Part shown: positions 7,023 to 19,530 of the stretch, piece after piece
Layout of the letters: each line of letters opens with the position of its first letter
Position numbering within the stretch: position 1 is the first letter of the stretch
Virus record (IMG/VR): IMGVR_UViG_3300035564_000033
Span: 1-34,890 of that record
Source of the DNA: a virus
Reading direction: 5' to 3' (one strand)
Length of the DNA: 34,890 bases
The notes under the pieces: model-generated
Seen by the model: the letters and a program-made list of their open reading frames with translations, nothing else
The model's database searches: none
Told to the model about the DNA's origin: nothing
Position numbers and translations under genes: made by a program

Positions 7023-8185
7023 GCTCTGTCTCCTAGTTCCGGGTGAAGTTCATTGGTCCTGACGTACCCCGGAGGCAGGTCAAGACCCTGGCCGGGTTTC
7101 CAGCCTTGGGTACACAATTGGAAATACGGGCACTTCCCGAATCCAATGCAGGCGGACGTGTTGCGGGGCCAGCGCCCAAGCCGTTGGCAATCGCGTAGCA
7201 TCCCCTGCATCATCCAGAGTTCGGCGTCGAACTCCTCCAGGTCCACGGCCAGGCGGGGAATCTCCTTCCGCTGAAAGTACCAATCCGGCCGCTCGCCGAT
7301 GTCCGCGGCCAGCCGCTCGCCGTACTCCTCCGGCGTCTGGCGGCGACTCTGCAAGGTCCAGCCCTTCTCTTTGTCGCCCGCCTGGCGGGGCTTGCCATTG
7401 GCGAGATAGACTCGCTGGCCTGCATCATCCAAGACGATCTTGAAGCCGTCGCTGTCCAGCGTCGGAATGAGTATCGGCTCGATAGACGGCTTGCGGATCA
7501 CGTCGTACAGGACCGACTCAGGCTTGTAGCCGAGTTGTTCGGCGGCACGGAAGTACAGACTGATCTGTTGGTCGATTCGGAGGCGAGCCCAGTAATCGGA
7601 ATCGGGGGCCAGGTCGTCGCTGGTCGTCTTGCACTCTTTTACCAGTACGCGGCCGTCGGGCGCCTTCACCACGCCGTCCATGACGCCGGCGACTCGGAAG
7701 TTGCGGCAGAGGCCGCCCGTCTCTGTGTTGACGATGGGCAACTCGAAGGCTTGTTCCGTCGCCAGGTGCTCCAGCGGCATCGTCTCGTCCCACCGCCAGA
7801 AGTAGCCATTGAGCAGGCAGCCGATGGTGACTCGCTCGATGGCGAAGTCGAAAGCCTTGTCGGGGTCTTCCGGCGTCGGATAATGGTCGTAGTCGGCCAG
7901 CACTGCGGCGGTCGCCTCGCCGGCAGCGGCGCCCTTGGCCCGGAGTTCAATGCCGCGGTGCATGGCCTTGCCCATCCGCAGCGGCTTAGCCTCCACGTCG
8001 GGCACGATGCCGAGTTCGTACCGCCATTCGTGCTTCTTTAGGCACGTCTTCGCGCAGGTCATGCGCGAGTTGGTCAGGAGGTTCGCTCCGATCACTTCCG
8101 CCCGATCTGTTTCCGTGGTCCAGCGCGGCGGGGCTAGTTGTCGTCCTCGTCGTCTGGGATTCCATTTCACGGTTACAAATGCCAT
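7019..8185 (-). CDS. PD-(D/E)XK exonuclease, Cas4/RecB-like
   Basis: 388 aa. The nuclease core is visible: R41 and C44/C48 in NSRMTCAKTCLKKHEW, H76 in GKAMHRGIE, D170 in AGVMDGVV, and E184/K186 in VLVKECKTTS, followed by QQISLYFRAAEQLGY. C-terminal C346, C352 and C358 (CIGFGKCPYFQLC) with the early Cys suggest a 4Fe-4S cluster as in Cas4 and AddB. In phages such enzymes resect DNA ends for an annealing protein, here the Sak4-like neighbour. The first 21 codons lie inside one copy of a 110-bp direct repeat; the other copy at 8756-8865 carries a truncated start of the same gene. Confidence 0.85.
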   Translation of the reverse strand: MAFVTVKWNPRRRGRQLAPPRWTTETDRAEVIGANLLTNSRMTCAKTCLKKHEWRYELGIVPDVEAKPLRMGKAMHRGIELRAKGAAAGEATAAVLADYDHYPTPEDPDKAFDFAIERVTIGCLLNGYFWRWDETMPLEHLATEQAFELPIVNTETGGLCRNFRVAGVMDGVVKAPDGRVLVKECKTTSDDLAPDSDYWARLRIDQQISLYFRAAEQLGYKPESVLYDVIRKPSIEPILIPTLDSDGFKIVLDDAGQRVYLANGKPRQAGDKEKGWTLQSRRQTPEEYGERLAADIGERPDWYFQRKEIPRLAVDLEEFDAELWMMQGMLRDCQRLGRWPRNTSACIGFGKCPYFQLCTQGWKPGQGLDLPPGYVRTNELHPELGDRA

Positions 8186-8234
8186 GTCATTCTCCTCTTG
8201 TGGCCGTGCCGTCTAGTTCACAGTTCCGTCACGC
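8125..8234. repeat. 110-bp direct repeat, copy 1
   Basis: Identical over 110 bp to 8756-8865, with matching bases continuing a little on both sides past single mismatches. On the minus strand it holds the last codons of one gene (VTEL and stop), the intergenic gap with the ribosome site, and the first 21 codons of the nuclease. It marks a 631-bp tandem duplication or an insertion between two copies. Confidence 0.95.
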
Positions 8235-8421
8235 AGACGCGAGATGGCCTGAGTGTGCCGTCGCGGTACAATTCCTGCAGCGTGGCTTTTGATAACTGAA
8301 TCAGACCCTTGCGCGTCCGGCTCATGGGCTCGCCAAAGCACAGATACCAGCCCGCGTCGATGTCCTTGCACTGCCAGCACCAGCACACCACCTGGCACTT
8401 CTTGACCCTGGGCTTCTTCAC
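8218..8421 (-). CDS. Cys-rich small protein, 67 aa
   Basis: The GTG start at 8421 is preceded by AAAGGAG. The N-terminus KKPRVKKCQVVCWCWQCKD is basic and Cys-rich (C9, C13, C15, C18), so a zinc site is likely. The final VTEL and stop come from direct repeat copy 1, so this C-terminus is shared at DNA level with the gene at 8849-9046. Function unknown. Confidence 0.65.
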   Translation of the reverse strand: MKKPRVKKCQVVCWCWQCKDIDAGWYLCFGEPMSRTRKGLIQLSKATLQELYRDGTLRPSRVCVTEL

Positions 8422-8730: not shown

Positions 8731-8816
8731 AGTTCCTGTCTCACCTTCCGCCAGTGCGGCGGGGCTAGTTGTCGTCCTCGTCGTCTGGGATTCCATTTCA
8801 CGGTTACAAATGCCAT
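8727..8816 (-). pseudogene. 29-codon truncated nuclease start (duplicate)
   Basis: This frame repeats the first 20 residues of the nuclease at 7019-8185 (MAFVTVKWNPRRRGRQLAPP) and then diverges to HWRKVRQEL and stops, in ATGA overlap with the next gene. It lies in direct repeat copy 2. It keeps the nuclease's ribosome site, so it may act as a translated leader peptide that couples translation into the gene at 8506-8730. Confidence 0.7.
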
Positions 8817-8865
8817 GTCATTCTCCTCTTGTGGCCGTGCCGTCTAGTTCACAGTTCCGTCACGC
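8756..8865. repeat. 110-bp direct repeat, copy 2
   Basis: Second copy of the repeat at 8125-8234. It carries the end of the gene at 8849-9046, the ribosome site and the nuclease start codons, which here lead into a 29-codon frame rather than the full nuclease. Confidence 0.95.
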
Positions 8866-9046
8866 GGACGCGGACGGCGCGGAGGCCCTCAGCCTCCAGT
8901 TGCTTCCACGTCCTGTCGGGTCGTGTCTTTGCGAAGTGCGCCCAAATCTCATCCTGACTGTAGCCGACAATCGAGGTCAGGAAGTTGTCTACCTCTCGCG
9001 GTCCAGTCCACTTCGCGCACCACATGATCTTGCTGCACTTCTTCAT
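8849..9046 (-). CDS. Hypothetical protein, 65 aa
   Basis: ATG at 9046, 4 bases after the lysozyme gene, with GAGG upstream. Sequence: KKCSKIMWCAKWTGPREVDN, then FLTSIVGYSQDEIWAHFAKT, a small mixed alpha/beta protein. It ends in VRVRVTEL, the tail encoded by direct repeat copy 2. This is probably the original neighbour of the nuclease gene before the 631-bp duplication. Function unknown. Confidence 0.65.
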   Translation of the reverse strand: MKKCSKIMWCAKWTGPREVDNFLTSIVGYSQDEIWAHFAKTRPDRTWKQLEAEGLRAVRVRVTEL

Positions 9047-10423: not shown

Positions 10424-10918
10424 TCACTCCTTCGCGGGGGCGAGCGTGAGGCGATTCCAGAGGGCGATGGCATCGGCGCTGGTGCCAGCCAGAGGGCCAC
10501 GAACGCCGCACTCCGCACCACAGAACACGTAGAACTCGTCATCCGGGGCGTGCTCAACACACCCTTCCGTTCCGCACGCCGGGCAGTTCTGCGGCTTTGG
10601 GGCGAGCGGGGCGAGGATGATCTGCATGACATGTTTGTATTCTGCCCGATGAACTCGGCCCTCTTCCTGCAAAACGTCGCGTCCCCGAGACGGCGCGAAC
10701 GCAACCGCCTTCCACCCCTTCGGCGTCGCCGCCCGGATGTCCGCCAGCACCTTCCGCTCGTCGCTGGTGACTCCGCCGTCGAGGAGTTCGCGGACCGCGG
10801 CGACCATTCGCAGATTTGCGGCACGGGTCTTCTCGCTCTGCTCCGCCCAGGGAGTGTGTATGTCTCCGGCGGCTATCATCCGTTCCGATACAGCCTTCAC
10901 GAGTTCTTCATTCGTCAC
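10424..10918 (-). CDS. Lar-like zinc protein with helical N-terminus
   Basis: 164 aa. GTG start at 10918 overlaps the preceding stop (GTGA). The C-terminal 55 residues match the restriction-alleviation (Lar) type domain: NCPACGTEGC (C112, C115), FYVFCGAECGVRGP (C133, C137), then ADAIALWNRL. Proteins with this domain are common in phages, and Lar itself relieves type I restriction. Whether this one does so cannot be told from sequence. The N-terminal half is helical (AAVRELLDGGVTSDERKVLA) and resembles other phage proteins of unknown role. Confidence 0.7.
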   Translation of the reverse strand: MTNEELVKAVSERMIAAGDIHTPWAEQSEKTRAANLRMVAAVRELLDGGVTSDERKVLADIRAATPKGWKAVAFAPSRGRDVLQEEGRVHRAEYKHVMQIILAPLAPKPQNCPACGTEGCVEHAPDDEFYVFCGAECGVRGPLAGTSADAIALWNRLTLAPAKE

Positions 10919-11136
10919 AGGTCGATCTCCTTTGCCAGCAGCGGCCTCAGCCACCTGTCCGCCGCCGCGTCCAGTTCCGTTTCCGTCTGTGCCCGCATGA
11001 TTTCCTTGAAGCCGCTCATCGTCTGGTCGTCGTCGAGCAGGCCCCGTTCCGCCACGATGCACAGGCAGTCCGCGGCGATCTGGCGCTCCTTCAGGAACGC
11101 CTGGCGATTGAGCCGGGAAGGCCGAAGGGCGTTCAT
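10915..11136 (-). CDS. Hypothetical helical protein, 73 aa
   Basis: ATG at 11136 overlaps the stop of the alpha-CTD-like gene (ATGA). All-helical, charged sequence (LNRQAFLKERQIAADCLCIV; DDDQTMSGFKEIMRAQTETE; LDAAADRWLRPLLAKEIDL). No family recognised. Confidence 0.65.
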   Translation of the reverse strand: MNALRPSRLNRQAFLKERQIAADCLCIVAERGLLDDDQTMSGFKEIMRAQTETELDAAADRWLRPLLAKEIDL

Positions 11137-11618
11137 TGGCCGGCCTCCTGTCTGCGGGCGCGCTCGGCGAGCATGGCGTCGGCGTGGTTGAAAGCGATCC
11201 TTGCGGCCATACTGGGATCGTCAACTAGGCGCTCCGCGTCCTCATTGTCGGCCGCGCACCGGACGCTAGGAAGTCCGCTCGCCAACATCCCCACCAGCGC
11301 CTGCCCCGCGAACCAATCGCGGAGGGTGATGGGCAACTCCACCTTTGGCGGCCCTTCCGGCTCTGTCATGCCCAGCGACAGGCCAATCTCGGAAAGTCTC
11401 TGCTTCACTTCTTGCAGGCATCTCTTTCCGAACGATCTCTGCATGAGAAGGTCATCCTCGTTCAGCCGGCACAGTTGGCCTACTGTGCGGATAGGAGTTC
11501 GGTCTTCGGCCCCAGCATGATAGAAGGTGGCCAAAATGTTCTCGACGCGAACAGACCACCCTATGTGGTCAACAGTTGCCGCCAACTTCTGCGCCATGGT
11601 CCATTCGTTCGGAATCAC
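11133..11618 (-). CDS. Phage protein with RNA polymerase alpha-CTD-like domain
   Basis: 161 aa, GTG start in a GTGA overlap. Residues 20-84 read like the C-terminal domain of RNA polymerase alpha: WSVRVENIL, then IRTVGQLCRLNEDDLL, SFGKRCLQEVKQRLSEIG and LSLGM. Residues matching known UP-element contacts of E. coli alpha are kept: R24 (R265), N27 (N268), G64 (G296), R66 (K298) and E70 (E302); S299 is Cys here. Residues 98-155 form a second region (ITLRDWFAGQALVGMLAS, then ARIAFNHADAMLAERAR) of a kind common in phage proteins of unknown role. It may bind DNA or host transcription factors as a free alpha-CTD mimic, or use the helix-hairpin-helix motif for another DNA role. Confidence 0.75.
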   Translation of the reverse strand: MIPNEWTMAQKLAATVDHIGWSVRVENILATFYHAGAEDRTPIRTVGQLCRLNEDDLLMQRSFGKRCLQEVKQRLSEIGLSLGMTEPEGPPKVELPITLRDWFAGQALVGMLASGLPSVRCAADNEDAERLVDDPSMAARIAFNHADAMLAERARRQEAGQ

Positions 11619-11758
11619 TGGTCGCTCTCCTTCACCGCGTCCACCGGCATCCCGCAGGGGTAGGCCGGGTCATGCCTGTGCGGACAGGTACAGCACGGGG
11701 TACTGTTGCGGACGGCCGGGACAGTCGCCCGGCGTGGTCCGATGCGATCCTGGGGCAT
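11615..11758 (-). CDS. 47 aa putative zinc-finger protein
   Basis: The C-terminal half reads CCTCPHRHDPAYPCG, with enough Cys and His for a zinc site, then ends in a GTGA overlap with the next gene. The ATG at 11758 has no clear ribosome site; translation may be coupled or begin elsewhere. It overlaps the competing frame at 11670-11798. Function unknown. Confidence 0.45.
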   Translation of the reverse strand: MPQDRIGPRRATVPAVRNSTPCCTCPHRHDPAYPCGMPVDAVKESDQ

Positions 11759-13107: not shown

Positions 13108-16100
13108 TCACTTCCGGGGCTTCGGCAGGGACGGTTTGAGGCTGGATTTCAGGCCGGAAGAACCGCCCGACGATTTCGGCTGGTGTTCCTGGTAGTTCTG
13201 AACGCCCATTCCGAGCATCGACAGAATGCCCAGAGCGAGGCCAATCGGCACGCCTTCCGCCTGCATCGCCTGGATCATGTCTTGGCCGGATATCGGGAGG
13301 AAATTGAACGCCACGCGGCCCGGAGTGACAGGCTGCCCTACCACGTCCTTCCCGGCCAGGATGTTCCACGCGAGCGCGGGGACGGGGGCCAGTTTCGACC
13401 GCAGGAAGTTCTTGATGACATCGGACATGTCCTGTTGGCCGAACCGGACGTCCCCGCGAAGGGGCTTCACTTCTCCGTGCGCGTTCTTCGTTTCGCCCGT
13501 CGTCATGCGACTGGCAAACGTCGTGATCTGCGCCAAGCCGGTCAGCGGGTCGATCCGCGAATCCCCAAACCGGACCTTGCCGAAGTCGGAAGACCGGGGG
13601 TCTTTCTCCACCTGTCCGCCCGCCGCCATACCCAGGGCGTAGACGACGGCTACGCCCGCCAGGAACCGGCCGTACTCCTTGAGGACCATCGTCCGAGTGC
13701 GCCAGGAACCGCGCCACAGCGGAACGCCCAGCATCATCTGGATTCGGCTGGCAAAGTACCGGGGCGCGAACAGGAAGGTATTGAGCGTAGCGAGTCCGCT
13801 GGACGCCCCGAACGTGCCGCGGCCCGTGGCGATATTGATGAACTTGGCGATGGCTTTCATTTCGGCCGGGGTCGATTCGCCCGTGCGGGACAGGCCGCGA
13901 GTCATCTTCTTGAACATCTCGAACCGCAGCCAGTTCAGCCCCACGGTGTACGCCCGCTGGGACTGCTTCACGCCGGGTACTTTCTCGGCCCAGCGCGACA
14001 TGAACGCCTCTTCCATCTTCGCCAGCGTCTCCCCGTGCCCGGTCAGTTCCAGACCGGCAACTCGCGATTGCCTGTACTGCGGGTCTTGCCGGATGGCGTC
14101 TTCGATCCCAAATGCGGCCTTCTCGGACGCAAGGGCGCGGACCTGCACCTTGACCATCTTCGCCCCGAGGATCGGGTGTCCGAGCGTAATCACGCCCGCC
14201 TGCCGTAAGGTGGCCGACAGGTCCATGCTGGTCATAAAGGACCGGGGCAGGTTCAGGAGTTCCCCGCCGTAGCGCAGGGCCTTCTGCGGAACGGTCTGAT
14301 TGGCGAAGACCCACTTCTGACGGCGTTCCGCCCATTGGCGAAGGACGGTTTCCAGTTTGTAATCGAGGGCAACCTGTTCCGGGGTGCGTGGCAGTTCCCG
14401 TTTGATCTTCTTCGGAAACTGGTTCTCCCGCATCTGCTTTTGCAGGTCCGCAATCCGGTTGACCGTCCGAGTCTTCAGGGACTGAACGGCGCTCTTCAGT
14501 TGCGCCTCCGGGTCCGTGACTTCGTACCCGCCTTCTTCCTTGGCCGCGTTCACGAGTTTGATGAGTTCGCGTTCGGCTTCGCTCGGCTCGCGGCGTTGGA
14601 ACCCCGTCCGCTTCGGGGCTTCCTTGGCGGCCATATCCTCCAGTTTGCCGATCTGCTGCAACTGGCCCTTGAGGTCGCGGAGCGCCGTTTCGATCTCGCC
14701 TTTGGACAGGCCCCGATACTTCCCGTACCCGCTGATGGCGTCCATGACTTCGCGGCGGGTGACTTCCGGGGCGGCCTTCTTGATCTCGGCATGGACGGCA
14801 TCGACCAAGGCGTTGCGGTTCCGAATCCCGGCCTCGACGAAGGACCGGGCCAGCACTTGCGCCGCCGGGGCGATGTCGGCCCGTGGGTCTTTGCTCAGTT
14901 TGCCCGCGAGTCGTCTGACGATGGGTTCGGTGATTCCGGCGAGCGATTCCTTGCGCCCTTCGCGCCAGGCGGCGTTCAGGTGGGGCTCGATTTCCTTGCC
15001 GAAGTTCTTGACCATCTCGGCGGCCCACTTACCGAATTGGCGGACGCCCGCCTTGATGTAGAGGGCGGCCACTTCGCCCAGGTCTTTGACGACGGTAATA
15101 TCCGCGCCTCCCAGGCCCGCGCCCATGCGGGACGGGGAGAGTTTCGCCTTGATGCGAGCGAAGGCGGCAGTAAGCCGGGCCTGTTCCGGCTCGGTAAACC
15201 GGATGCGGCCGGGCGCACGCGGGGGAGCCGGGGCGGCGGGCCCGCCGGACGGCCCCTTGCCCGCCTGCCGTTCCAGCATTCTGGCTTGGCGTTCGGCCAT
15301 GACGGCGCGGCCTTCGGCGGCTTCCTTCGCCCCTTGCATGGCCCGCATTTCTTCAAGCAGTTTCGCATGTGCCGCTTCGGACGCCTTGACCGCTTCGGCG
15401 TCAGCCTTCTGGCCTTCAAGGGCGGCGTTCTTCGCCTCCAGGTCGGCCTTCGTGGTCAGCAGTTCCGCAATCTTGGCTTGGAGCGTTTTGACTTCCGCCA
15501 GTTCCGGGGCGGTCAGCGTGTCGCCCTTGGCGATTGCGGCGGACCGTTCCATCGCGGCAAGGGAGTAGTCCAGATTCATCATGCGGCGTCGGAAGGACAG
15601 AGACTGCGCGACGTGCGTACCGCCGATGGTCGCGGCGTCTGCCCAGCGCCCGAAGTCCAGCGCCGCCTGCGCCGCTTGGCCCGCCGCTTCCCGCTGCGCG
15701 TCCGCGTCGCCGCTCTTGATGGCTTCCGCTTGCGCGGTTTCTGCCCGCTGGCGCTCGACGACGAGCCGGGCGGATTCGTGGAGAAGGATTCCCTCTTCGC
15801 GGACGGTCAGAGGCCGGGGATTGGCAAGAATGCCGTCCACGAGTTTCTTGCCGACGAACGGGTCTTCCTTGAACGCTTGCGCCGCCTCTTCGGCTACCGA
15901 TACGTCAGACCGGGCGGGCCCGTGCTGTGCCGGGGCCTTGCCCGATTCGGACAAGACCTGATCGACCCAGGCATTCTTGACGCCCGCCGTCTGCTCGGGA
16001 TGCTTGCCGATGACTTCCGAGCCTTCCGGCGTGTTGGGGATTTCGCCCCAGATACGGTCGAGGTGCGGCTCTACGTCCTTGCCCTCCGATTCGATCATCC

Positions 16101-19100
16101 GGCGCTTCCAGGCGTCTTTCGTCGCGGCGATCCCGGCGCGGGCCATGTCGCGCAAGACCTGCGCCCCGACGATGGCGTAGTCCTTCACGATGTCATAGAT
16201 GTCGCCCAGGCCGGAACCGAGTGAGACGGACTTGCCGGCCTTGCGCGCGGCGATTCGGGCGCGGGCTGCGTCGGCGGCGTCGTCCAGTGAGGTACGCGCC
16301 GGCTTGGCTTCCTCCGACACGACGCGGCGCGGGGCGGGCTCCGTCCCCGCCGTTCCCCCTTCGCTGGGCGGGCGGGTGACTCCGGGCAGTGCTTCGGCCT
16401 GTCCGGGGAACTTCCTGGCGATCTCCGCGAGGTCGCGTTCTTCTTTCGTCATCGGCTTACGCGGCTCGGCCTGGGCCTCGCGCTTCGGCTGCGGAACGGC
16501 GAACAAGTCTCCCGTCGGCTTCCCGTACAAGTCAGTCTGCGCTAGGTTCGTTCCCTCCGCTGGCGGCTCGCCGATCTTCGCCCCGGAGACTTCGGCGCGG
16601 CGCAGACTGCCGGGGTCGATGATGACTGATTCGTGCCGGTCAACCGTCTTCCGCACTCCGTCCTCGATGATTGCCGCCTCGGTGTCCGGGTCGATGTCCT
16701 TGACGGAGTATCGCTCGCCGTTGATGGTGAACTCGTCACCGGCGGCCAGTTCCAGGGCGGGCATTCGCTCTGCGCCCATCGCCTTTGATGCAAGGCTCGG
16801 TTCGGCGACTGGCGGCTGCTTCGCCGCTCGCCGTTCCTCAACGCGGGCAACGTGCGCCTTCCGGCCTTCCGATAGGCTCAACCCGGTCTGCCGTTCCGCT
16901 TCGGCAACGGCCTCTTTCGGGGCGTAGTACCGCTCGGTATTCCAGTGCTTCCCCTTCCGCGTCTTGAGAGTCAGGAACTCACCGCCAGAGAGGTCTTTGA
17001 TCGCGCGGAGTAGTTGACGGGGAAGGCCGGGCGGAACGTGGGCGAAGTCGCGCAGGTTGGCCTTGTCAAAGACCTTCTTTGCCCGCTGTCCGGGAACTTG
17101 GACGGCTACGTTTCCCTCCATGCGGTAGCCCTTCTGTCCCCAATCGTACAGGGTGCGGCCGTGGTACTCGCGGGGGAGATTCGTCCAGGGGCCTTCATGT
17201 GCCGGCGCAGGCGTCTCCCCCTTCGCTCTCGCGGCGGGGGGCGGGGACTGGGCGGCGCTGCGCTTCCGCAATTCGGCCTCGACGGCGAGTAACTTGGCCG
17301 ACAGGTCCAGTTTCGCTTCCATCCCCTTCGTGCGCGACATGGCGATCTTCGTCTTGCGGGCGATTGCCTTCAGTTCGTCCAGACCCATGCTCGCCAAAAG
17401 TTGTTCGATAGCAGTGGCCTTCCCCGCCCCCTTCCCCTCCCCCGCGCCGGCCTTGGCCGGGGCGGCGTCGGCGGGCTTGGTGATTGCCTTGGGATTCATC
17501 ACGACGATTTCGCCCTTGGACCAACGGATCGCATCGTAGCCATTGTCCTTGGCGTACTTCGCTACTTGGCGCACCCACTCGTGAACGTCAAAGGCCCCGC
17601 TTCCTGGGCGCACCATGTCCACATAGCCGTCCAGGAGTTTCGGATTGTCGCGGACTCGCGGGACTGCTGTTCGCTGGAGGTCCGCACGATAGGCGTCTTC
17701 GATGGCTTTCTGGAGTTCCGCGTGTCCCTTCTGCTCGTACTCTGGATGGATCGTCCCCACGTCCAGAATCCTGGCGTCCGGGTTGAACCGGAAACTACTG
17801 ACGATCTTGCCGTAGTTCTTAGAGTAAGCCGGACTCTCACTGACGTAGAATCCTGGCCCGTAGAATCCGGCATCTCTCTGGCCGAGTTTGGACGTGTCCA
17901 CTTCGGCCACTTCGCCCTCGCCTCCGTGGTGAACAACGGGCATGTCCGCGCCGGACTTATCCCACGCCTCTCTCCCGCCCGGCGCAGGCTTCGCGGCAGG
18001 GGGCGGCGTGTGAATATTCACAGGGGGCATTTCTTGCGCTTGCGCTGCGCCACTGATCTGCAAGCCCTTGTCGGCAATAGGCTTGCCACTCGGTTTTTCT
18101 TGCGCAAGAGCGTCAGCGTGAATATTCACAGCCCCCACCGTCGCCTCCGGGGCGGGTGTCGGGGCCACCCCCCGCGAGATCGCCTCGCCTGGGGCAGCCG
18201 GGGCGGGTTGCGGGGGTGGCTGTGGTAAACTGGGTAATTTCGGAACGTCAGACGTTCCGAGCGGAATGTCAGACGTTCCGGCAGGCCGTTGCACCCCAAA
18301 ATCCGGGTTCTCGGCCATGAGCCGGTCCAGTTCCTGCACCGTCTGCGCCCGGCGAGATTCCGGCACGGTGTTGTAGAGTGCCGCCGCTTCCGGCGAAACC
18401 TCCTCCTGCCCGCCCAGGATCGCATCCAGGCCCGCGCCTTCCGCCTCAGACAACCGCCGCCGGTAGTCGGCCAGTTCCCGCGTCTTGCCAGCCTCGGCCA
18501 TCAACTTCGCGGGTCCCCCGAAGGCCAGGCCGAACGCCCCGCCCGTCACCATCGCCTTCGCCAGCCGGTTCAGTAGGCCGGGTTCCAGTTTGCCCTTCGC
18601 GTAGGCTATCGCCGCCTCGTTACCGCCCTCCATCGCCACTTGAATCAGTGCCTGGTGGAACGCCTCCCCGATGATGTCGCCGGCGACCTGTCCCGTCTTG
18701 CCCGCCATCCGGTGTCCAAGTTCGCCCAGCACGCGGTTGATGAGGCCCGCCTGCGTGCCCTTCGCCATCGACAGGAAGTGAGTCACCCGGCTGTTGCCGG
18801 CCAGTGCCATGACCGCCCCGGTGATCTGCGCGGCCGTCTTGGCGCTCTGTGGGTCCACGCCCTGCGCCGTGAGGCTGTCGTAGGTGTCCTGGGCGGACGT
18901 AGCGCCCCAGTAGGCCATCGCCGCGGCGGTCCCGGCCGTGGGTCCGCCCGCGAACGTGCCGGCTGCGCCCGCCGCGCCTGCGCCTACCAGTTTCGGGACA
19001 GAACCGGCGACGGTCCCCAGGATCGCGGCCGGGTCCGTGGCGAACCCGCCGAAAGACTCCGGCATCTGCGTCCGCCATTGGGGGTTCTGCGCCGCCAGGG

Positions 19101-19530
19101 ACTCCGCACCCTGCGAAGCGGAGCCGAACCACTCCCCGATTCCCGGGTAGTTCAGGGCCTTGAACGTCGTCTCCGCAAGCCGCGTGCCGCTCCGCAGGGC
19201 CTCATTCGTGTCGGCAAGTAGTTCATGGCCCACCGTCTTCAGGACGCCCTTCTCACGGGATGTCTGCGGGGCGTTCGCGGGAACAACGCCCTCGGCCGCC
19301 ATGTCGTCAAGCAGGCTGCTCTTGACCGGCTCGACACCTTGGGCGGCCATGTCGCCGAGAAGCGTTCCCTCCGGCGGAGGCGCGGGTCGCTGCTCGTAAT
19401 TGCCCGCCCCGGTGTTCGTCCAGACCATGCCCGGATGCTCGTCGACCTGCGGTGCATCCGGTGCCCGCCGATAGTCTGGCTTCTGGCGGTCGGCCTCTGT
19501 CGCCCGCGGAAGATCGGCAATCGTGGTCAT
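13108..19530 (-). CDS. Giant polyvalent/internal virion protein with ADP-ribosyltransferase-like domain
   Basis: 2140 aa, ATG overlapping the previous stop (ATGA). Regions by residue: about 170-350 Ala/Gly-rich helices, possibly membrane-active; 415-520 Pro-rich linker with repeated GTSDIP/GTSDVP and VNIH; about 525-685 an ADP-ribosyltransferase-like domain (VVHHGG, FYGPGFYVSESPAYSKNYG, and GEIVVMNPKAI giving an H, Y, E set); about 935-985 a small beta domain (DEFTINGERYSVKDID); about 1345-1420 coiled coil; about 1985-2110 a C-terminal domain (RFGDSRIDPLTG to FLPISGQDM) as in phage large polyvalent proteins. Such proteins are thought to enter the host with the DNA and act on host targets. It lies at the end of the virion gene block, as internal virion proteins of podoviruses do. 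Confidence 0.8.
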   Translation of the reverse strand: MTTIADLPRATEADRQKPDYRRAPDAPQVDEHPGMVWTNTGAGNYEQRPAPPPEGTLLGDMAAQGVEPVKSSLLDDMAAEGVVPANAPQTSREKGVLKTVGHELLADTNEALRSGTRLAETTFKALNYPGIGEWFGSASQGAESLAAQNPQWRTQMPESFGGFATDPAAILGTVAGSVPKLVGAGAAGAAGTFAGGPTAGTAAAMAYWGATSAQDTYDSLTAQGVDPQSAKTAAQITGAVMALAGNSRVTHFLSMAKGTQAGLINRVLGELGHRMAGKTGQVAGDIIGEAFHQALIQVAMEGGNEAAIAYAKGKLEPGLLNRLAKAMVTGGAFGLAFGGPAKLMAEAGKTRELADYRRRLSEAEGAGLDAILGGQEEVSPEAAALYNTVPESRRAQTVQELDRLMAENPDFGVQRPAGTSDIPLGTSDVPKLPSLPQPPPQPAPAAPGEAISRGVAPTPAPEATVGAVNIHADALAQEKPSGKPIADKGLQISGAAQAQEMPPVNIHTPPPAAKPAPGGREAWDKSGADMPVVHHGGEGEVAEVDTSKLGQRDAGFYGPGFYVSESPAYSKNYGKIVSSFRFNPDARILDVGTIHPEYEQKGHAELQKAIEDAYRADLQRTAVPRVRDNPKLLDGYVDMVRPGSGAFDVHEWVRQVAKYAKDNGYDAIRWSKGEIVVMNPKAITKPADAAPAKAGAGEGKGAGKATAIEQLLASMGLDELKAIARKTKIAMSRTKGMEAKLDLSAKLLAVEAELRKRSAAQSPPPAARAKGETPAPAHEGPWTNLPREYHGRTLYDWGQKGYRMEGNVAVQVPGQRAKKVFDKANLRDFAHVPPGLPRQLLRAIKDLSGGEFLTLKTRKGKHWNTERYYAPKEAVAEAERQTGLSLSEGRKAHVARVEERRAAKQPPVAEPSLASKAMGAERMPALELAAGDEFTINGERYSVKDIDPDTEAAIIEDGVRKTVDRHESVIIDPGSLRRAEVSGAKIGEPPAEGTNLAQTDLYGKPTGDLFAVPQPKREAQAEPRKPMTKEERDLAEIARKFPGQAEALPGVTRPPSEGGTAGTEPAPRRVVSEEAKPARTSLDDAADAARARIAARKAGKSVSLGSGLGDIYDIVKDYAIVGAQVLRDMARAGIAATKDAWKRRMIESEGKDVEPHLDRIWGEIPNTPEGSEVIGKHPEQTAGVKNAWVDQVLSESGKAPAQHGPARSDVSVAEEAAQAFKEDPFVGKKLVDGILANPRPLTVREEGILLHESARLVVERQRAETAQAEAIKSGDADAQREAAGQAAQAALDFGRWADAATIGGTHVAQSLSFRRRMMNLDYSLAAMERSAAIAKGDTLTAPELAEVKTLQAKIAELLTTKADLEAKNAALEGQKADAEAVKASEAAHAKLLEEMRAMQGAKEAAEGRAVMAERQARMLERQAGKGPSGGPAAPAPPRAPGRIRFTEPEQARLTAAFARIKAKLSPSRMGAGLGGADITVVKDLGEVAALYIKAGVRQFGKWAAEMVKNFGKEIEPHLNAAWREGRKESLAGITEPIVRRLAGKLSKDPRADIAPAAQVLARSFVEAGIRNRNALVDAVHAEIKKAAPEVTRREVMDAISGYGKYRGLSKGEIETALRDLKGQLQQIGKLEDMAAKEAPKRTGFQRREPSEAERELIKLVNAAKEEGGYEVTDPEAQLKSAVQSLKTRTVNRIADLQKQMRENQFPKKIKRELPRTPEQVALDYKLETVLRQWAERRQKWVFANQTVPQKALRYGGELLNLPRSFMTSMDLSATLRQAGVITLGHPILGAKMVKVQVRALASEKAAFGIEDAIRQDPQYRQSRVAGLELTGHGETLAKMEEAFMSRWAEKVPGVKQSQRAYTVGLNWLRFEMFKKMTRGLSRTGESTPAEMKAIAKFINIATGRGTFGASSGLATLNTFLFAPRYFASRIQMMLGVPLWRGSWRTRTMVLKEYGRFLAGVAVVYALGMAAGGQVEKDPRSSDFGKVRFGDSRIDPLTGLAQITTFASRMTTGETKNAHGEVKPLRGDVRFGQQDMSDVIKNFLRSKLAPVPALAWNILAGKDVVGQPVTPGRVAFNFLPISGQDMIQAMQAEGVPIGLALGILSMLGMGVQNYQEHQPKSSGGSSGLKSSLKPSLPKPRK
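18009..18129. repeat. Repeated palindrome GTGAATATTCAC inside the giant gene
   Basis: A perfect palindrome TGTGAATATTCACA at 18009-18022 and the 12-bp core GTGAATATTCAC at 18118-18129, about 108 bp apart. They encode VNIHT and VNIHA in the Pro-rich linker. The AT-rich core stands out from the GC-rich surroundings and could be an operator-like protein-binding site, or reflect a repeated peptide. Confidence 0.75.
18241..18280. repeat. Tandem 19-bp palindromes (CGGAACGTCAGACGTTCCG)
   Basis: Two 19-bp inverted repeats at 18241-18259 and 18262-18280, spaced 21 bp apart (two helical turns). Copy 1 is a perfect palindrome around a central A; copy 2 differs by one base. They encode GTSDIP and GTSDVP in the linker of the giant protein. 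The two-turn spacing is what paired operator sites usually have. Confidence 0.8.

Follow-up and report, generated by a model that had tools for sequence, protein, structure and literature searches.

A small phage protein with an alpha-CTD-like domain of RNA polymerase, a candidate DNA-binding module at host promoters

The virus record analysed here, a linear contig of 34,890 bases that represents a fragment (hereafter the window, i.e. the whole stretch of DNA), encodes a 161-aa protein whose first ~85 residues have the sequence pattern and the predicted fold of the C-terminal domain of the bacterial RNA polymerase (RNAP) alpha subunit (alpha-CTD), and whose C-terminal ~65 residues form, judging from a profile match and a structural model, an independent helical domain. 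We see about an even chance that this is a UP-type minor-groove DNA-binding protein built on an alpha-CTD module, which probably modulates promoters of the host polymerase. DNA binding is the best-supported functional step and is well supported by the residues on the predicted DNA face; a role in the takeover of host transcription is what we infer beyond this step.

Features of the 161-aa gene and its surroundings, in window positions
Feature	Position	Strand	Basis
73-aa gene, next downstream of the 161-aa ORF	10915..11136	(-)	start overlaps the stop of the 161-aa ORF (ATGA)
161-aa ORF, GTG start at 11618: alpha-CTD-like domain and phage C-terminal helical domain	11133..11618	(-)	ORF list, PF03118 and phrog_2201 matches
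C-terminal helical domain, residues 96-157 (...LRDWFAGQAL...ADAMLAER)	11148..11333	(-)	phrog_2201 match; AF2
alpha-CTD-like domain	11388..11594	(-)	PF03118 match residues 9-77; own profile residues 16-83
Second predicted DNA-contact cluster, residues 62-70 SFGKRCLQE (G64=G296, R66=K298, C67=S299, E70=E302)	11409..11435	(-)	column mapping
9-residue insertion, residues 32-40 FYHAGAEDR, helix1-helix2 loop	11499..11525	(-)	alignment; absent from canonical alpha-CTDs; lower pLDDT
First predicted DNA-contact cluster, residues 24-27 (R24=R265, N27=N268)	11538..11549	(-)	column mapping
AGGAG ribosome-binding site, 8 nt upstream of the GTG start of the 161-aa ORF	11627..11631	(-)	sequence

The record has the content of a tailed phage (terminase, portal, major head protein, a 2140-aa phage protein, Sak4, exonuclease and DNA methylase), and all of its family-assigned genes lie on the minus strand. 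On the plus strand at 11133-11618 the same frame is interrupted by a stop. The ATGA overlap of the 161-aa ORF with the 73-aa gene suggests coupled translation.

An alpha-CTD pattern in residues 20-84 had been noticed in an earlier, sequence-only reading, and all of the motifs quoted there are present (SVRxxN at residues 22-27, IRTVGQL at 43-49, FGKRCLxEV at 63-71 and GLSLGM at 79-84). The Pfam family RNA_pol_A_CTD (PF03118) matches the protein with E=3.5e-9 and 36.7 bits (curated cut-off 23.8) over profile positions 8-67 of 67, and a phmmer search of the PDB returned RNAP alpha chains exclusively at E below 0.1, the first non-alpha match being at E=0.79. In line with this, the AlphaFold2 (AF2) model of the N-terminal domain (mean pLDDT 83.5) has helices at residues 23-31, 46-50, 54-58 and 65-77, which is the alpha-CTD order. 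Each of the best 50 PDB matches listed by Foldseek for this model is an RNAP alpha chain or complex (prob 1.00); among them are a Caulobacter alpha-CTD bound to AT-rich DNA (9zum, TMt 0.83-0.85) and an alpha-CTD with sigma4 on UP/-35 DNA (3n97, TMt 0.85).

A profile built from a 49-row alignment (the window protein and 48 viral relatives) finds RNAP alpha at 4e-32, followed only at 0.02 by another family, a Ski2-type helicase; since the window contributes one of the 49 rows, this score characterises the set. The RNAP-alpha specificity of the set profile together with the Foldseek matches rules out a generic helix-hairpin-helix (HhH) origin, and the result that would have spoken against the sequence-only reading, a better match to another HhH family with no surface match, did not appear, the main contacts being kept. 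Full-length rpoA models score the protein at 20-41 bits only (cut-offs 228-523). Compared to the bacterial domain (E. coli RpoA ~250-329; PF03118), with which it shares the helix pattern, the SVRxxN / FGKRxLxE motifs and the predicted fold, the 161-aa protein lacks the alpha-NTD and the inter-domain linker, its alpha-CTD beginning at residue ~9, and it carries a 9-aa insert, has lost the 261 determinant and has a phage domain attached. Lacking the alpha-NTD, it cannot take the place of an alpha subunit in polymerase assembly; by its sequence, it has a domain of the PF03118 family and is not an RNAP alpha subunit.

For surface mapping, alignment columns were converted to E. coli alpha numbering, using the E. 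coli alpha sequence and the assignment of its determinants. Four of the eight UP-element contacts are identical (R265=R24, N268=N27, G296=G64 and E302=E70) and K298 is replaced by another basic residue, R66, so that the expectation of conserved R, N, G, basic and E contacts holds for these five positions; it does not extend to N294, C269 and S299, which correspond to S62, I28 and C67. The N-terminal domain thus appears to retain the majority of the minor-groove contacts to UP-type DNA. The inserted loop could alter or block this DNA face. The 261 determinant (D259 and E261), which contacts sigma region 4, is represented by H18 and G20, and the positions of V287 and E288 are both occupied by D.

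The strongest evidence for alpha-CTD-like DNA binding by the viral domains comes from residue counts among relatives. The loci had been retrieved by motif patterns, and residues were therefore recounted only in clusters whose retrieval pattern left the respective position free. In these unforced clusters, given as raw counts that ignore phylogeny, R265 is found in 36/36 and N268 in 28/36, K298 in 10/11, S299 in 11/11 and E302 in 9/11, whereas positions 266, 267, 271-274 and 301 vary widely. Contacts that are kept while most of their neighbours vary suggest that the DNA surface has been under selection in the viral relatives. The equivalents of R24 and G64 are invariant in the alpha-CTD alignment of the family and are kept in the 161-aa protein.

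Two scans of viral contigs yielded 73 loci (with one contig counted twice and one locus being phage V16), which correspond to ~60 distinct short viral alpha-CTD proteins in 39 clusters. These proteins are 84-371 aa long (median 141) and have at most 162 residues ahead of the domain, which leaves no room for an alpha-NTD; among the 60 distinct proteins, the domain lies closer to the N-terminus in 28 and closer to the C-terminus in 32. Two of them are fusions to sigma70 region 4 (L021, 1285-1980, E=4e-10; L033, 4563-5138, E=8e-12), and a third such fusion, with sigma4 just below the Pfam cut-off, is encoded on the fecal-phage scaffold MT835636 (L267:3626-4624). These sigma4-alpha-CTD proteins are possible single-chain readers of -35 and UP elements. 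Further partners comprise weak HTH and weak FitA-like RHH matches, coiled coils, and DUF551-like parts, which were judged by eye and are sub-threshold in Pfam. One protein (L030:4539-5249) carries two alpha-CTD copies in tandem. The MT835636 protein also has an HTH-like part at its N-terminus, before sigma4, and one contig (L050) carries separate genes for two alpha-CTD proteins, one on each strand.

Of 289 alphaproteobacterial genomes, 274 have an alpha-CTD match and only nine have a second one. Some of the second matches stem from rpoA genes that are split, others from alpha-CTD proteins of short or unusual form, which indicates that the module exists beyond phages, too. In four alphaproteobacterial loci (L255, L258, L259 and L261), alpha-CTD-like domains are found in non-RpoA proteins of 85 to ~600 aa. 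Two plasmid matches inspected as candidate mobile modules (C. difficile and Sphingomonas) turned out to be full rpoA genes adjoining ribosomal-protein genes, and most alpha-CTD matches in the 'phages' collection seem to be rpoA genes from contaminating bacterial DNA.

The remainder of the 161-aa protein had been described as a different, phage-type helical domain, and this description is borne out. Residues 96-157 match positions 163-218 of phrog_2201 (E=5e-9), with the RDWFAG and ADAM motifs present, and the AF2 model of this domain is helical and confident (pLDDT 83.6); a structure search of the PDB gave no fold match for it. Across 33 sequences of phrog_2201-type C-domains, the residues R, D, A, G, D and R are invariant, and the 161-aa protein keeps them. 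Similar small proteins are encoded by Paracoccus phage Shpa, by EBPR podovirus 2 and in many, mostly alphaproteobacterial, genomes. Shpa gp37 and EBPR podovirus 2 gp49 share the LRDWFAGQAL...ADAML C-terminal domain with the 161-aa protein, but proteins of their type usually have an N-terminal DGGxAFP stretch; this stretch, which usually precedes the C-domain elsewhere, is absent from the 161-aa protein, where the alpha-CTD takes its place.

Close relatives of the whole protein were found neither in the viral-contig nor in the genome-contig collections, and in 385 alphaproteobacterial genomes only the alpha-CTD part was matched, nearly always in frames of rpoA length. Among the matches listed, the exact pair of alpha-CTD and C-domain is absent from 40 genome and 80 viral C-domain loci, and the pair was thus found in no other sequence. 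The uniqueness implied by the sequence-only reading therefore applies to the exact domain pair and not to the module, which turns up frequently in viral contigs with other partners and is also present in three or more phage isolates.

The isolate phages are Ruegeria phage vB_RpoS-V16, Bacillus phage vB_BmeM-Goe8 and Microbacterium phage Mazun, of which Goe8 and Mazun came to light separately from the two contig scans. V16 gp23, annotated as HTH-domain protein / pyrophosphatase, resembles the 161-aa protein in that PF03118 matches its N-terminal part (E=1.2e-10) and a separate phage domain comes next, but this C-terminal part is a MazG-like pyrophosphatase. Goe8 c00050 likewise has an alpha-CTD without alpha-NTD (E=4.3e-22), but the domain is C-terminal there and the phage protein that carries it is a different one. 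Its gene (L156:1959-2591, L268:8107-8739) is present in both terminal repeats and is annotated as RNA polymerase subunit alpha, although the 210-aa product has only a C-terminal alpha-CTD. In SPO1-like phages, the terminal-repeat region carries host-takeover genes. The N-terminal part of Goe8 c00050 matches phage SBSphiC, and the match stops short of the alpha-CTD. Mazun gp26, annotated as DNA binding protein, is short and matches PF03118 (E=1.7e-13) as does our protein, but has the domain at the C-terminus, next to another partner region.

According to the reading we favour, the N-terminal domain would bind AT-rich, UP-like DNA close to promoters without being attached to polymerase, and the C-terminal domain would mediate oligomerisation or contact a partner. 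At host promoters, UP-type sites would most likely be occupied or remodelled, either by competition with the host alpha-CTD or by displacing or attracting activators. An action on transcription is suggested by analogy with the parent domain, by the sigma4 and HTH fusions and by the position of the Goe8 gene; the partners found in other proteins, sigma70 region 4 and HTH- or RHH-like parts, point to promoter DNA as the target of the module. The DNA of the phage itself is poor in candidate sites. Only 4 22-mers with at least 16 A/T were seen in the window versus ~17 expected, under a simple independent-base model applied to a fragment, and neither A/T runs of 10 or more nor UP-like AT-rich tracts were found in it. 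Near the 161-aa gene, there is one promoter-like site only and no AT-rich tract. This lack of AT-rich tracts in the window makes host promoters more probable targets than phage UP elements, and together with the loss of the acidic residues at 259 and 261 it favours DNA binding or competition at host UP sites over recruitment of polymerase to phage UP elements. Counting against the transcription reading are the S299 to C and N294 to S exchanges, the single occurrence of the exact fusion and the gene position, between the gene for the 2140-aa protein (virion side) and the recombination genes, where no early takeover cluster is recognisable.

Some of the same observations would also fit a general DNA tether, in which the alpha-CTD fold only brings the phage C-domain to DNA for replication, recombination or packaging, without a link to host transcription. 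The module is joined to many unrelated parts, and the non-regulatory partners of many relatives (MazG in V16, DUF551-like parts), as well as coiled coils, fit such tethering equally well. Genes flanking five viral alpha-CTD loci encode portal, terminase, SSB, Erf and integrase, with a Holliday resolvase also among the flanks of relatives, and in the window Sak4 and the exonuclease lie downstream of the 161-aa gene. In addition, the C-domain mostly occurs elsewhere as a stand-alone small phage protein in alphaproteobacterial prophages and hence needs no promoter-binding partner. We nevertheless consider a general tether somewhat unlikely, given that partners such as sigma70 region 4 and HTH-like parts point to promoter DNA and that the profile is RNAP-specific rather than generic for HhH domains.

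The alpha-CTD is a hub for activators, and a protein-contact mimic could soak up host activators or dock with sigma region 4 and thereby redirect polymerase to phage promoters. Positions 259 and 261 are mostly acidic in the viral set (21/28 and 25/33 clusters, respectively) and three proteins carry sigma4, which would agree with such contacts in relatives. The 161-aa protein itself has D259H, E261G and D at both V287 and E288, and the scarcity of promoter-like sites and lack of an AT-rich tract around its gene also speak against this mechanism, which we regard as improbable here. Even less probable is a decaying or neutral fusion without function: the fusion was seen once and several conserved residues are altered, but the ORF is intact, its ribosome-binding site is strong, it has the ATGA overlap with the next gene, and family-invariant residues are kept in both domains. 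T4 Alt is an injected ART, and we know of no precedent for an ADP-ribosylation decoy. That R24 (=R265) acts as such a decoy or substrate, absorbing modification by a phage or host enzyme such as an ART of the upstream-encoded 2140-aa protein, appears very remote: T4 Alt/ModA modify R265 (PMC2988021) and the 2140-aa protein (13108-19530) has a possible ART-PolyVal domain (17449-17988, minus strand), but this match is weak and below cut-off (E=0.004), and no relative was found that has the 2140-aa neighbour in common.

Returning to DNA binding at host promoters, the occurrence of the alpha-CTD on varied proteins in dozens of viral records suggests that viruses have a means of acting on such promoters that has received little study. 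Tentatively, phages may have repeatedly captured the alpha-CTD as a mobile promoter-binding module with varied partners (sigma4 in three records) to redirect or block host transcription, with the 161-aa protein being a DNA-binding member without sigma contact; we regard this wider scenario as possible. Unrelated phages are known to target the alpha-CTD or its R265, T4 through modification by Alt/ModA (PMC2988021) and LUZ19 through cleavage by Rac (PMC7552054), and P2 Ogr and G1 gp67 are binding proteins. All of these act on alpha-CTD function (PMC2988021, PMC7552054), but they modify, cleave, bind or block the host domain, and none of them is an alpha-CTD copy. If the scenario is true, phages that encode alpha-CTD copies in dozens of architectures would follow a tactic unlike these, placing the promoter-reading part of the polymerase on separate proteins; in searches of the open-access literature, we came across no paper that describes such phage-encoded modules. 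Such a tactic is directly testable, as the proteins are small and classical UP-element promoters are available, and the sigma4-alpha-CTD fusions would offer a simple handle on the joint reading of two promoter elements.

Searches via relatives of the exonuclease and the 2140-aa protein of the phage found no sister phages, the closest relative of its terminase is only 30% identical, and no Rfam RNAs were found in the window. Outside the 161-aa gene, we observed a direct duplication of 122 nt (8120-8241 and 8751-8872) whose copies are 98% identical and 631 nt apart; each copy ends a small gene, the two being similar and encoding 65 and 83 aa, and begins the next gene.
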